Below are positions 52,623 through 57,580 of a stretch of 64,000 nucleotides of DNA, piece by piece. Numbering within the stretch: position 1 is the first letter of the stretch; each line of letters starts with the position of its first letter. This DNA comes from Thermodesulfobacteriota bacterium. Its GTDB lineage: Bacteria; Desulfobacterota_D; UBA1144; Nemesobacterales; CSP1-2. Where the stretch lies: the NCBI GenBank assembly GCA_035559815.1, contig DATMAT010000063.1:62001-126000 (forward strand). Direction: 5' to 3'. The notes under the pieces were generated by a model that was not told the origin of the DNA, did not search any database, and saw nothing but the letters and a program-made list of their open reading frames with translations. Position numbers and translations under genes: made by a program.

Positions 52623-54370
52623 ATGGAAGACTCACACAAAGACCCCGGCCCCGTTTCTCATTCTATCAAGAATTCAATTTATTCGTTTTTCTCCAATGAG
52701 TACACGTCTTTTATAATCATAGCCATTTTTATTGGATTTTTTGCCGGGCTGGCGAACTTTGCCTTCGTAGAAGTCTATCGCTATATATAAAAGAGTAATT
52801 CTGCCTTTTTGGGGCTCTCCCTACGTAATAATTCCGGTGTTAAGCGGCGGCGTGCTGCTCGTTGTTCTCTCCTTCCTTTTCCATGACGAGGTTATCGGCT
52901 ACGGCTTTCCAAAGTTTTTAGAAAAAATAAACCTGAGGGGCGGCATACTAAGACCCAAGGAAACAATAGCCAAGGCGCTAGGCTCCTGTGTGACCCTGGG
53001 GTTTGGGGGGTCAGCAGGTCAGGAGGGCCCGATTGCCCAGCTAGGGGGCGCAGTAGGCAGCTTTATAGGGCAGATATTCAAGGTTTCGAGGGGTAAGATA
53101 CGTGTATTTGTGGCCTGCGGGTTTGCTGCAGGGATAGCGGCAACCTTTAACGCTCCGGTGGCCGGCGTACTCTTTGCCGAGGAAATTGCCCTTCTTAGGG
53201 ATTTCAAGGTCGGGAGCTTTCTCCCGATCGTAATATCCTCGGCGGTCGGCACAGTCGTTTCCCACGCTTTAAGGGGAAACGAGCCTGTATTCCGGGTACC
53301 GCCCTATGAGTTTGTGAATATCAACGAGCTTTTCTTTTATGCCGCATTCGGGGTGCTCTTAGGGGTTTTTGCGTCCGGGTTTATCAAGCTTTTTTTGCTG
53401 GCTGAGGAGAGGTTTTCCAGATTTAAAACCCCATTCCCGGTTAAAGCCGCTTCTGGGAGGATTAATAGTCGGCTTTATGGCGATATTTTTCCCCTATGTT
53501 CTTGGAAACGGCTACGACCAAGTGGAGAAGGCCCTTCAAGACCAGCTTCCCCTTTTGGTGATATTGGGATTAATTATCCTAAAGCCCTTGGCCACATCAA
53601 TAACCCTCGGATCCGGATGGCCTGGAGGGATATTTGCACCCGCTATTTTTATAGGGGCTGTGGCCGGAAACGCATTCGGAAAGTTGGTCGATTTTATACT
53701 GTCGAGGCCGGTGTCCTTAAGCAGTGCATACGCAACGGTTGGGATGGGCACCTTTCTTGCGGCGGTGACCCAGGCACCTCTCACTTCCATATTTCTGATA
53801 TTCGAGATGACTCAAAACTATAAGGTGGTTATCCCCATAATGATTAGCTCGGTCCTGGGGAGCGTGGTGTCTCGGCTTATCGTGGGGGGCTCGCTTGAGA
53901 GCCTAGAACTGAGTAAAGCGGGGATAAACATCGAGGAAGAGATGGAGGGTCGCATTATACATTTAATCCAGGCTAAAGATATAATGACCGGTGACGTGGA
54001 AACTATACCCGAGGGGATGACCCTTCGAAAACTGATAGAGTATATTCCCCAGAGCCATTACACCACTTTCCCGCTCGTGGATGAGAAAGGGAATCTTACG
54101 GGCATAATCTCGATACAGGATTTTAGAGGGTGGATATTCGAGGAATGAATCAGGGACCTGGTTGTGGTGAAGGAACTGGCCACCTTGAACGTCATAACAG
54201 TAACGCCTGAAGATACGCTCTATAAGGTTTTTAAGAAGTGGGAGAAGAAGCCTGTGGAGATTCTTCCGGTGGTCGAGTCAAGTAGTTCTAAAAAGATTGT
54301 GGGTGTGCTTTCCCGAAAAGATGTAATCGCCGCCTACAATAAAGCCCTATCAAAGAAAACACTTGATTAG
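52623..54370 (+). pseudogene. ClC-type chloride channel with two CBS domains, decayed
   Basis: The conceptual protein starts MEDSHKDPGPVSHS and breaks off at TAA 52788-52790 after VYRYI. It continues in a second frame with SGGVLLVVLSF, GSAGQEGPIAQLGG (gating Glu) and FNAPVAGVLFAEE. One extra G near 53446 moves it to a third frame with KPLLGGLIVGFMA, GSGWPGGIFAPAIF and a first CBS domain. An in-frame TGA at 54146-54148 follows FEE, and the second CBS domain (VVVKELATLNVITVTPEDT) continues behind it. Three independent lesions make one sequencing error unlikely. It diverges from the antiporter. Confidence 0.9.
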
Positions 54371-54413
54371 GATTTAGAATCTCTTTCCAAGAAATCTAGG
54401 AATTGCGATTCTT

Positions 54414-54460
54414 AGTAAACTTACTACTATGTCTTGACATAGTGAACTTACTTGTATAAT
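54414..54460 (+). promoter_or_regulatory. Promoter with palindromic operator and direct repeats of the R-M-like island
   Basis: TTGACA (54434-54439) and TATAAT (54455-54460) are both perfect, 15 bp apart. The -35 box sits on the palindrome CTATGTC TT GACATAG (54427-54442). Flanking it are direct repeats AGTAAACTTACT (54414-54425) and AGTGAACTTACT (54441-54452), 11/12 identical. The ATG of the first gene is only 13 bp past the -10, so the message is nearly leaderless. This layout fits tight autorepression; the regulator is probably the small protein that follows. Confidence 0.75.
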
Positions 54461-54472
54461 ATTAGATCAATC

Positions 54473-54670
54473 ATGAAAAAGACCTTTCCTCTACAGCTAA
54501 CCCCTGAAATGCATCGAAGAATGAAGCATGCATCATTTGATGCTGATGAGACTTTACACGAATGGATTCTCAAGGCTATAGAACTTCGACTCGAATCCTA
54601 TGAACGAAAGAATAGGAGGCATAATGGTAGCAACCAACAACGCAAAGCTTCGACAAAAGAAAACAAATAG
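54473..54670 (+). CDS. Small ribbon-helix-helix-like regulator
   Basis: From ATG 54473 the 65-residue product reads [20 protein letters not shown], then [20 protein letters not shown]. This is a beta strand and two helices as in Arc/MetJ-type DNA-binding proteins; the tail is basic. A longer start at 54452 lies inside the -10 box and is rejected. The end overlaps the methyltransferase gene by 47 bp, so the two are translationally linked. A control-protein role for the island is inferred from position and operator. Confidence 0.65.
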
Positions 54671-55424
54671 GGTTGCCAGGGGAGTTACCACCAACGAATT
54701 GATCTTTTCAGCTCATGTGGGTACAAATGACGAGGTATTTCCACAAATTCTATGCCTTTATGTGCCAAAGGGCAGTAAAGTAGCTGATGTTACATTCGGC
54801 AAAGGGGTATTTTGGAAGCGAGTCAACTCAAAAGATTATGACTTTTATCCATCAGATATTAAGGACGGAATCGATTGTAGAGAATTACCATATGACAATA
54901 ATAGTTTTGATGCTGTAGTTTTTGACCCCCCTTACATGCATACACCCGGCGGAACCGCTCATAATGGTCATCAGAATTATGAGGATTACTATAAGAATAA
55001 TTGGAGCAGCAATTCAACCAAAAAGTATCATGAGGCAGTACTCGACCTTTATTTCACTGCCGCGAATGAGGCATGGAGGATTCTCCGTGGGGATGGAGTC
55101 TATATAATCAAGTGTCAAGATGAGGTTTGCGCCAACCGACAAAGACTTACTCATGTGGAAATCATAAATGAGTTAACACGAAAAGGCTTCGTAGTTGAGG
55201 ATTTATTCGTTGTTGTTAGAAGGAATAAGCCCGGAGTAAGTCGGGTCCTAAAGCAAGTTCACGCTCGCAAAAACCATTCTTATTTCTTGGTCTTTAGGAA
55301 GGCGATGAAATCAAAGTATCAACCTCAAGGAAGAACTCACCAAATGGCCTTACACTTAAAGGAGGGAAAACCTCATTCAGTCGTGCATAAGAAGCGGGGA
55401 CGTCGAGATAATAAATACGCTTAA
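54624..55424 (+). CDS. Predicted DNA methyltransferase (DPPY type)
   Basis: The 266-residue protein has a SAM-binding motif [12 protein letters not shown] (55-65) and catalytic DPPY (101-104, [11 protein letters not shown]), then [20 protein letters not shown] and [10 protein letters not shown]. Motif I precedes DPPY, as in alpha/gamma-type amino-methyltransferases making N6-methyladenine or N4-methylcytosine. The C-terminus is basic. AGGAGG at 54614-54619 fixes the start at 54624. The 3' 131 bp overlap the convergent nuclease gene antisense. Low GC relative to neighbours suggests transfer. Confidence 0.8.
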
Positions 55425-56163
55425 GTTGCGCAATGTGCATCTGATAAATTCGCCACTGGTCCGGTAGGCATATTTCAATAACTTCTCTTTTCTTAGTATC
55501 AGTCTTTGTTTCTGCAAGAATTACCGGAGTTCCGAGAAATCTGCCTGTGCCATAGACACCATCGAGAACCCGTTGGTGTGCCCATACTTGGATAACACGC
55601 TCACGCGTGGATGTTTTGATCGGAAGGTGAAATTTAGCTTGATTAGGGCCTAGATCGAAAACATAATCTGTTGGCAAGTTTGTATTCATGTCAAGATTTA
55701 GTACAGGTAATCGAGTAATCGGATTAACTCCAAGGCGGGCTGCAAAAAGATGACCAATTAAATACTCGAAAAAAGTACCAGGAGTTTTTTGATCACCAGA
55801 TTTTGTAAGATCGATCGCAGCAGAAAAACTTATCGCCAAGCAATATATGACATTTGATATTCTTTTGACGGAAAGCGAACTAAAATCGCCGGTTCTAAGA
55901 GCGCGTAATAGGGCAAACCAGTCGTCAATTGATGGGTTGTATAGTGTGTTGTTTATGGCTCTGCTAATCTTGTTTTTATATTGAAAGGCGAAGTATTTTT
56001 TACCTGGTATTTTAGAGTTAAGCTCGCAGCGTTTAAAACTATCCAAAAATTTAGTCGATTCAATAAAAATGTCGGTTAATACATCGCTAACCCTGGTAGA
56101 TTTGATATCTTTTATGAGATTTTTTTGAATTTGTCGATATAAATCTTCTATCTTCTTTGACAT
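55294..56163 (-). CDS. Predicted type II restriction endonuclease
   Basis: The 289-residue protein has [17 protein letters not shown] (Glu133), PTDYVFDLG (Asp166) and [20 protein letters not shown] with Lys183. This E...D...K layout with KTSTRER is typical of PD-(D/E)XK restriction enzymes. [20 protein letters not shown] follows. I cannot name the recognition site. No Shine-Dalgarno is visible. It converges on the methyltransferase gene with a 131-bp overlap of coding ends. AT-rich composition matches the methyltransferase rather than the core genes. Confidence 0.7.
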
Positions 56164-56308
56164 TTATTTCTAAAAATCGCTAGATAATTAAATTTCATAT
56201 TATCATAAACAGTTATAGTTATCGATTTGGCAAGTTATATGTTGAGGTCAAGTCTCGATATAGGCATTAGTAGGATTTAAGCATAAGGACCTGTAGTGAC
56301 TTATTAGG

Positions 56309-57580
56309 CTAACTTGCTTCCTCCTTGCAGCCACCCTCTTTGAGAATCTTCTCGATCTCGTATCCGGCGGCGATGCTGGCGATGCGCGAGATCAGTTGAT
56401 AGGCGGGTGGAAAGAACCTATCACATTCTTTATTCCGGCAAGCTTCTTTGTCTTCGAAAGAGATGCAGGAGAATTCCATGCCCTTGGCGTTTAAGTTATC
56501 GAATTCACTTTTTCCCCTGTTTATCCGTAGAAAACCCCCCGCCACCTTAGCTTCGATAAGATAAACAACCGGTTCTCCTACAATGTTATCCTTAAACCGG
56601 AGTGTGGTGGGTATTCCCTCCTGGATTACCACGTCCCTTACCGGCTTCCCGCTTTTGGACACCCTCATACGCTTTCTTCCCTCGGCGTTGAGCGTCCTTA
56701 TCTCTTCTCCACTGGGAACGCTTATCACCGCCATCCCATAGGTGCCCGAATTACTTTTCACGAATACGAATGGTTTTTCCTTGATTCCCCTCTTTTCATG
56801 TTCTTTCCTGAGTTTTTCAAGCATCATGTCTAAGGATGAAGCTACTCTCTCCCGGTCTTCCGGGTTGTCAAAATCAACGTCTATCTCCGGCATGGTTTCT
56901 ATGGAGATTATCCAAGGGTCGATCTCCAGTATTTGGGCAAGCTCTTTAGCCAGCTTGTTGTAAAACTCAAAGTGAATGTTTTTCCTCCTGGTGTGCCATC
57001 CTATCTCTACCGGCGGCTCCACCGGCTGTATTATGTCCTTGAGGATTTTCGGGCATTTCGACGAGAAGTCGTTATTGATCAGAAGCAGATCCGGGACAAA
57101 CCCGGAGATAAAGACCTTGTGTCTCTCCATTTTCGCTTTGAAGCCGATAACTTCCTGGCCGCTCGCTGTATCGAATTTCACTTCTTCTTGGTATAGCTCG
57201 TCGCTTACCAGTCCTACACCGACCTTATATCCCACGCTTTCCAGGATCCCTTTCAGCACGTGGATGTTTTCCCAGTAATGAAGGTTCCTGGTATGAAGCT
57301 CCGGGATTATGAGTATCTTTTTCACCCGGGGATACTTGCGAAGGAAATAGTCGTGAAAGAGGCTGGCGGTGCGCTCTCTAAAGATCGGGCAAAGGTTGTT
57401 AAACCCGGCCGGAAATATGTTCGTATCGACCGGTGTGATTTTGTGCCCGGAGACCCGGAGGTCAACCGAAGTATAGAGCGGAACGATAATTCTCTGGCAG
57501 TGCCCCTCTATCCATTCTTCTATCTGGTTACTTTTTGCGTCGATGCTTTGATTGACCTTGTCCAGAAATTCCATAACCAT
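56309..57580 (-). CDS. gshA: Glutamate-cysteine ligase, GshA type of PF08886
   Basis: This 423-residue protein matches, from memory of the family, the Acidithiobacillus-type glutamate-cysteine ligase that makes gamma-glutamylcysteine for glutathione. Blocks recalled are YTSVDLRVSGHKITPVDTN, FPAGFNNL, IPELHTRNLHYWENI, LLINNDFSS, EIGWHTRRKNIHFEFYN, PFVFVKSNSGTYGMAV, VIQEGIP, GEPVVYLIEAKVAGGFLRIN and LNAKGMEFSCISF. The fold is ATP-grasp-like. The ATG at 57580 abuts the stop of the RDD gene; GAGGGAATAA precedes it. gshB is not in the window. Confidence 0.85.
   Translation of the reverse strand: MVMEFLDKVNQSIDAKSNQIEEWIEGHCQRIIVPLYTSVDLRVSGHKITPVDTNIFPAGFNNLCPIFRERTASLFHDYFLRKYPRVKKILIIPELHTRNLHYWENIHVLKGILESVGYKVGVGLVSDELYQEEVKFDTASGQEVIGFKAKMERHKVFISGFVPDLLLINNDFSSKCPKILKDIIQPVEPPVEIGWHTRRKNIHFEFYNKLAKELAQILEIDPWIISIETMPEIDVDFDNPEDRERVASSLDMMLEKLRKEHEKRGIKEKPFVFVKSNSGTYGMAVISVPSGEEIRTLNAEGRKRMRVSKSGKPVRDVVIQEGIPTTLRFKDNIVGEPVVYLIEAKVAGGFLRINRGKSEFDNLNAKGMEFSCISFEDKEACRNKECDRFFPPAYQLISRIASIAAGYEIEKILKEGGCKEEAS

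Follow-up and report, generated by a model that had tools for sequence, protein, structure and literature searches.

When two enzymes with opposing jobs are encoded by the same base pairs, is the overlap real, and does selection keep it? This question is raised by a stretch of 64,000 nucleotides from a Thermodesulfobacteriota bacterium (the window), in which a putative DNA methyltransferase gene and a putative nuclease gene converge. It is rare for two established bacterial genes to overlap at length in antisense, and such cases are often annotation errors: a survey of convergent overlaps of more than 60 bp assigned 124 of 178 to misannotation, and of the 54 that were left, most were conserved in very close species only (PMC2478687). 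A preliminary description had reported a small regulator-like gene (+), the methyltransferase (+), and the nuclease (-) at this place, and all three open reading frames are there, inside 54473-56163. The coding sequence that the two enzyme genes share on opposite strands (55294-55424) is exactly 131 bp, as had been claimed, if both stop codons are counted. We consider it highly probable that these genes form a mobile type II restriction-modification (R-M) system, with a Kpn2I-type nuclease, an amino-methyltransferase, and a probable ribbon-helix-helix (RHH) protein, and that the antisense overlap is kept by selection.

The nuclease gene (55294..56163, -) encodes a protein of 289 amino acids that matches Kpn2I (6EKR; E 6.4e-31) and the PADLOC model REase_II (PDLC03502; E 2.7e-31). 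The preliminary description had staked the nuclease on an endonuclease fold, and the predicted structure has one: the AlphaFold2 model has a mean pLDDT of 91.9, and Foldseek matches it to 6EKR with E 6.5e-19 and a TM score of 0.80. E133, D166 (55666..55668), K183, and R187-E188-R189 (K183 through R189 are at 55597..55617) are unchanged in 16 homologues and align with the same elements of Kpn2I, including the catalytic aspartate and the K...RER motif. In the CCGG family (PMC6344858), these elements make up a permuted active site, PD...K...(D/E), and recognise the CCGG core. The third active-site position is His196 in all 16 homologues, while Kpn2I has Gln; this variation has not been described for the CCGG family. 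By sequence and model, the protein is a CCGG-family endonuclease related to Kpn2I, and we predict that it cleaves DNA. We looked for a phage origin of the nuclease, but there was no match in phage records and none in our nuclease scan of viral contigs. One contig from a viral collection (L017:2651-8196), which was reached via its methyltransferase, contains a methyltransferase gene and a nuclease gene that converge, with one IS1595-type transposase gene on either side.

The methyltransferase gene (54624..55424, +) encodes 266 amino acids, including a C-terminal tail that is antisense to the nuclease gene. Its start is probably the ATG at 54624, which has an AGGAGG-type ribosome site, rather than 54600, and with this start the regulator gene also overlaps the methyltransferase gene, by 47 bp on the same strand. 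The protein matches phrog_24333 (E 2.9e-62) and Pfam N6_N4_Mtase (E 9e-7). Its motifs are in the order X-I-...-IV-V-..., with a GxG-type motif I before DPPY and a DLYF-type motif V after it; DPPY itself (catalytic motif IV, 54924..54935, +) is invariant in an alignment of 17 proteins. M.NruI and M.Sbo13I belong to a gamma-order subgroup with DPPY (PMC2890505). The window's methyltransferase is 55% identical, over 223 amino acids, to an enzyme from the Shigella plasmid pSB13; the strain, and the size of 5.4 kb that PMC2890505 gives for the plasmid, lead us to infer that pSB13 carries Sbo13I. By sequence, then, the window's enzyme is a member of the M.NruI/M.Sbo13I gamma subgroup. The structure model covers only the core, with low confidence, and the tail is predicted to be disordered.

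A 15-residue block after DPPY is common to the methyltransferases that lie beside Kpn2I-like nucleases (L013 has S for T, and L017 has S for the second T), and it differs in the pSB13 enzyme and in several phage-contig homologues. This region (54939..55007, +, for which 13 residues are quoted) is probably a target-reading segment, and we expect the specificity of the window's methyltransferase to differ from the TCGCGA of the NruI and Sbo13I systems.

Which site would the nuclease cut? We predict T^CCGGA, and the methyltransferase would shield this site by methylating an amino group, at N6 of adenine or N4 of cytosine. L025 carries Kpn2I itself, with a C5 methyltransferase, and the nucleases of L011 and L014, which are closer to the window's, adjoin C5 methyltransferases that are 55-58% identical to the partner of Kpn2I. 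The simplest reading would be that this group of nucleases cuts TCCGGA and that one branch swapped a C5 methyltransferase for an amino-methyltransferase, or the reverse. It seems less likely, but is a serious alternative, that the system has another specificity; for example, the CCGG core could lie in another site, or the methyltransferase could have a wider target, such as TCNNGA. The window's nuclease shares only some 29% identity with plasmid enzymes of the Kpn2I kind, and the same subgroup of methyltransferases also serves TCGCGA systems (PMC2890505). On the other hand, the RER motif is invariant, the C5 methyltransferases that accompany related nucleases closely resemble the partner of Kpn2I, and only the methyltransferases that adjoin Kpn2I-like nucleases share the block after DPPY. 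We looked for avoidance of TCCGGA in 408 kb of genome G000, and the ratio of 0.94 is neither an under-representation nor a footprint, so it lends no independent support to the predicted site. In the same 408 kb, the palindrome with the strongest avoidance was CAGCTG (7 sites versus 45 expected, or 0.16 of expectation), which suggests long-standing PvuII-like restriction pressure that is unrelated to the module.

The small gene before the methyltransferase (54473..54670, +) encodes a probable RHH regulator of 65 amino acids. Its match to Pfam RHH_10 (E 0.01) is below the curated cutoff; the relative from L002 reaches E 4e-4, and seven homologues are found in the same place at other loci. It is RHH-like and not an HTH (XRE-type) controller as in C-protein R-M systems. 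Upstream of it is a promoter-like TTGACA-N17-TAATAT (54434..54462, +), and the pattern T(T/G)GAC(A/T)-N17-TAA recurs 36-50 bp upstream of the RHH start in all eight loci with the gene (0.05-0.25% of shuffles per locus, for a pattern that was picked by eye on the same sequences as were scored). Could the small protein be a remnant of an unrelated toxin-antitoxin system, with no role in regulating the module? The weakness of the Pfam match would allow this, and HicB-like antitoxin profiles also match it weakly. However, the small gene precedes and overlaps the methyltransferase gene at eight loci from several phyla, the promoter-like element upstream of it is conserved, and there is no adjoining toxin gene at the window's locus, so we think that this explanation is improbable.

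If the small protein is a regulator, then it probably binds its own promoter and limits synthesis of the methyltransferase, with which it would form one operon, and the nuclease would be driven by a separate promoter of its own. This proposal is by analogy to Kpn2I, where C.Kpn2I represses the methyltransferase and the nuclease has a weak independent promoter (PMC6237814). We saw no operator that the RHH promoter would share with the stretch upstream of the nuclease gene, so we place the regulator on its own operon only. We also considered an 18-bp perfect inverted repeat, ACTATGTC-TT-GACATAGT (54426..54443), which spans the -35 element, as a possible operator. An equally good repeat was found in 22 of 500 shuffles for the window's locus. 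Across the loci, only L009 has a strong version of it, the window has a modest one, and the others lack it, so we rejected it as a conserved operator.

The preliminary description had suggested acquisition by transfer on the grounds of AT-rich content, and this view is borne out by an empty site in a relative and by a patchy distribution. The G+C content of 54473-56163 is 0.399, as compared to 0.471 for the whole window, which puts it in the lowest 0.6% of 1.7-kb stretches. The flanking genes, for a ClC channel and a GshA-type protein, are 1965 bp apart in the window, but they are 30 bp apart in an alignment to the flanks in G005 (L072), a relative from the same family. The module (~1.94 kb) is thus a clean insertion between the 3' ends of these genes, and from this alignment its approximate bounds are 54355..56318. 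Only 1 of 58 genomes from the window's phylum has the nuclease, namely the window's own genome. On these grounds, the module was acquired horizontally.

The neighbouring gene has an oddity of its own. The ClC-channel/CBS gene (52623-54370, +) has to be read in three frames, one after another, and there is an additional TGA at 54146. The main frame change is in the same place in the window and in L072 of G005, at a run of T's (T7 in the window and T8 in G005), although the halves of the gene stay well conserved, with 78% protein identity in the second half. This could reflect transcript slippage, decay, or a sequencing error.

The three genes are linked elsewhere as well, which the preliminary description had named beforehand as a test of the module. 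Verrucomicrobiota, Nitrospirota, Spirochaetota, and one unassigned metagenome-assembled genome also have an RHH-like gene together with a methyltransferase gene and a convergent nuclease gene. Among the 15 loci that we found, 10 have the linked nuclease-methyltransferase module, and in the others the nuclease is paired with a C5 methyltransferase. Instead of an RHH gene, L010 and L015 carry a stand-alone XRE-type gene that precedes the nuclease. In L052 (2339-3400) and L053 (2335-3387), where a Kpn2I-like nuclease gene again converges on the methyltransferase gene, a methyltransferase of this kind has an XRE-type HTH domain fused to its N-terminus, so that one protein holds both the regulator and the methylase. 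Both the type of methylase (C5 or amino) and the type of regulator (RHH, XRE, or XRE fusion) have been exchanged around one family of nucleases. The module is rare: when we sampled phyla for more loci, we found them in 2 of 388 and 4 of 396 genomes. Most of the loci are from metagenome-assembled genomes, and L006 and L008 carry frame breaks that could be real decay or sequencing error. Three of the C5 loci also have a Vsr-like mismatch endonuclease gene, as read from sequence (L011:4916-5341, L014:7865-8485, and L015:7810-8220). A Vsr-type endonuclease is expected beside 5-methylcytosine systems.

The deep overlap is a property of one part of this family. At six loci (the window, L002-L005, and L007), the two genes overlap by 92, 131, or 179 bp, always in one shared frame that sets the third positions of nuclease codons opposite the second positions of methyltransferase codons; in relatives outside this group, the overlaps are 9-50 bp. 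The nuclease tree places the deep-overlap loci in a single group (support 92/92), and the methyltransferase tree does so weakly (78/62). Because the length varies, a constraint common to all six loci can extend no further than the first 92 bp. In L008 (6640-6900), as compared to the nearly identical L004, a frame break of single-base type lies in the overlap region, where it disrupts the nuclease frame and at once leaves the methyltransferase tail shorter.

An ordinary R-M system whose methyltransferase happened to lose its stop codon could also give an overlap, and this overlap would have no function. To ask how often the antisense frame would be open by chance, we kept the nuclease protein, redrew its synonymous codons, and checked if the frame was open for at least 88 bp. 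For the deep-overlap nucleases, it was open in 7-21% of recodings, so a single overlap is no great surprise and an origin by stop loss is easy, but retention needs selection. Neutral read-through would also fit with the varying ends of the overlap, with the predicted disorder of the tail, and with related methyltransferases that manage without a tail. It does not fit with the synonymous sites: among the six deep-overlap loci, which is a small sample, the identity of the nuclease's fourfold sites is 0.643 inside the overlap and 0.303 outside (p = 1.6e-4), while for the same columns in relatives without the deep overlap it is 0.357 versus 0.254 (p = 0.18). Similarly, the tail peptides are 53% identical, versus 27% as predicted by synonymous recoding of the nuclease (z = 10.6). 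The recoding ignores shared ancestry, but 17 upstream control blocks carry the same ancestry and show a small effect (z from -1.6 to 3.2). The profile of identity along the nuclease points the same way: most of the gene is at about 0.4, and identity rises to 0.51 at residues 246-259, 0.72 at residues 260-275, and 0.67 at residues 276-289, with the rise beginning near the minimal end of the methyltransferase. These results already disfavour a functionless read-through, to which we give little credence. Six homologous loci with a shared overlap, and with synonymous-site conservation confined to it, are far beyond chance, and the comparison across bacterial phyla indicates that selection keeps the shared stretch. 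In one clade, the methyltransferase thus carries a 3' extension of roughly 30-60 codons that is overprinted on the antisense strand of the nuclease gene and is retained by selection.

What is selected? The overlap might be kept as a nucleic-acid element, for antisense pairing or for a terminator or promoter inside it, and not for the tail peptide. If both transcripts are full length, then their 3' ends would be complementary over at least 131 nt. Antisense control has precedents in EcoRI and Eco29kI, and a 3' overlap of 123 bp acts in bsrG/SR4 (PMC3874152). However, sites that resemble terminators (between the converging genes) or promoters are no more frequent than by chance, and a search for an Rfam element gave no match. 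Also, third positions of the nuclease differ less in the overlap (0.387 versus 0.642) and other positions change little. The extra conservation is thus mainly at nuclease third positions, which are methyltransferase second positions; this is peptide-like and leans towards a constraint on the tail, even though the tail is predicted to be disordered, but it does not settle the question. A nucleic-acid element is possible, but we do not favour it over the tail peptide. Basic charge, which we considered as a conserved trait of the tail, shows no excess over the recoding expectation. Overall, we infer that the benefit lies in a useful methyltransferase tail, in damping of the convergent transcripts, or in the linked fate of the two genes. 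The preliminary description had seen the antisense transcripts as a way to balance methylase and nuclease, and by analogy this could be control at the RNA level. In a fuller version of this idea, the overlap would be a selected device that ties the nuclease to the methylase: the complementary ends would damp the messages, indels would strike both genes, and the nuclease would be hard to keep without the end of the methylase gene. We put this forward only tentatively.

Both kinds of enzyme are already known, and the departure from known systems is the deep and conserved antisense coding overlap between cognate R and M genes. Kpn2I (T^CCGGA; 6EKR; PMC6237814, PMC6344858) resembles the window's system in its homologous nuclease, with a permuted active site and the RER motif, in its convergent R and M genes (which overlap by 17 bp on L025), and in its separate regulator, but it has a C5 methyltransferase and an HTH C-protein that is divergent from the methyltransferase, whereas the window has an amino-methyltransferase, an RHH protein in the operon, and a 131-bp overlap. 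NruI and Sbo13I (TCGCGA; PMC2890505) share the gamma-subgroup methyltransferase with DPPY and a nuclease on the opposite strand, but their nucleases are unrelated (PD-X21-EVK) and the segment after DPPY is different; their R and M genes overlap by 6 bp on pSB13 and are separated by a gap in NruI. In EcoRI and Eco29kI (PMC3874152), as in the window, antisense transcription could affect the balance of nuclease and methyltransferase, but there the R and M genes are co-directional and the antisense RNAs arise from reverse promoters within the nuclease gene, while in the window the mRNAs themselves are predicted to be complementary. As compared to the long overlaps that were surveyed in PMC2478687, the window's overlap also exceeds 60 bp, but it is conserved across phyla with constraint at synonymous sites. 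Our literature search, with subscription papers and REBASE outside its scope, found no report of a deep, conserved antisense R-M overlap.

Here, the same stretch of code serves two known enzymes that work against each other, several phyla have this arrangement, and the tests at synonymous sites point to selection on it. This gives a compact and testable system in which to study how cutting and protection are balanced when an R-M module enters a new host, and how overprinting gives rise to a protein tail.
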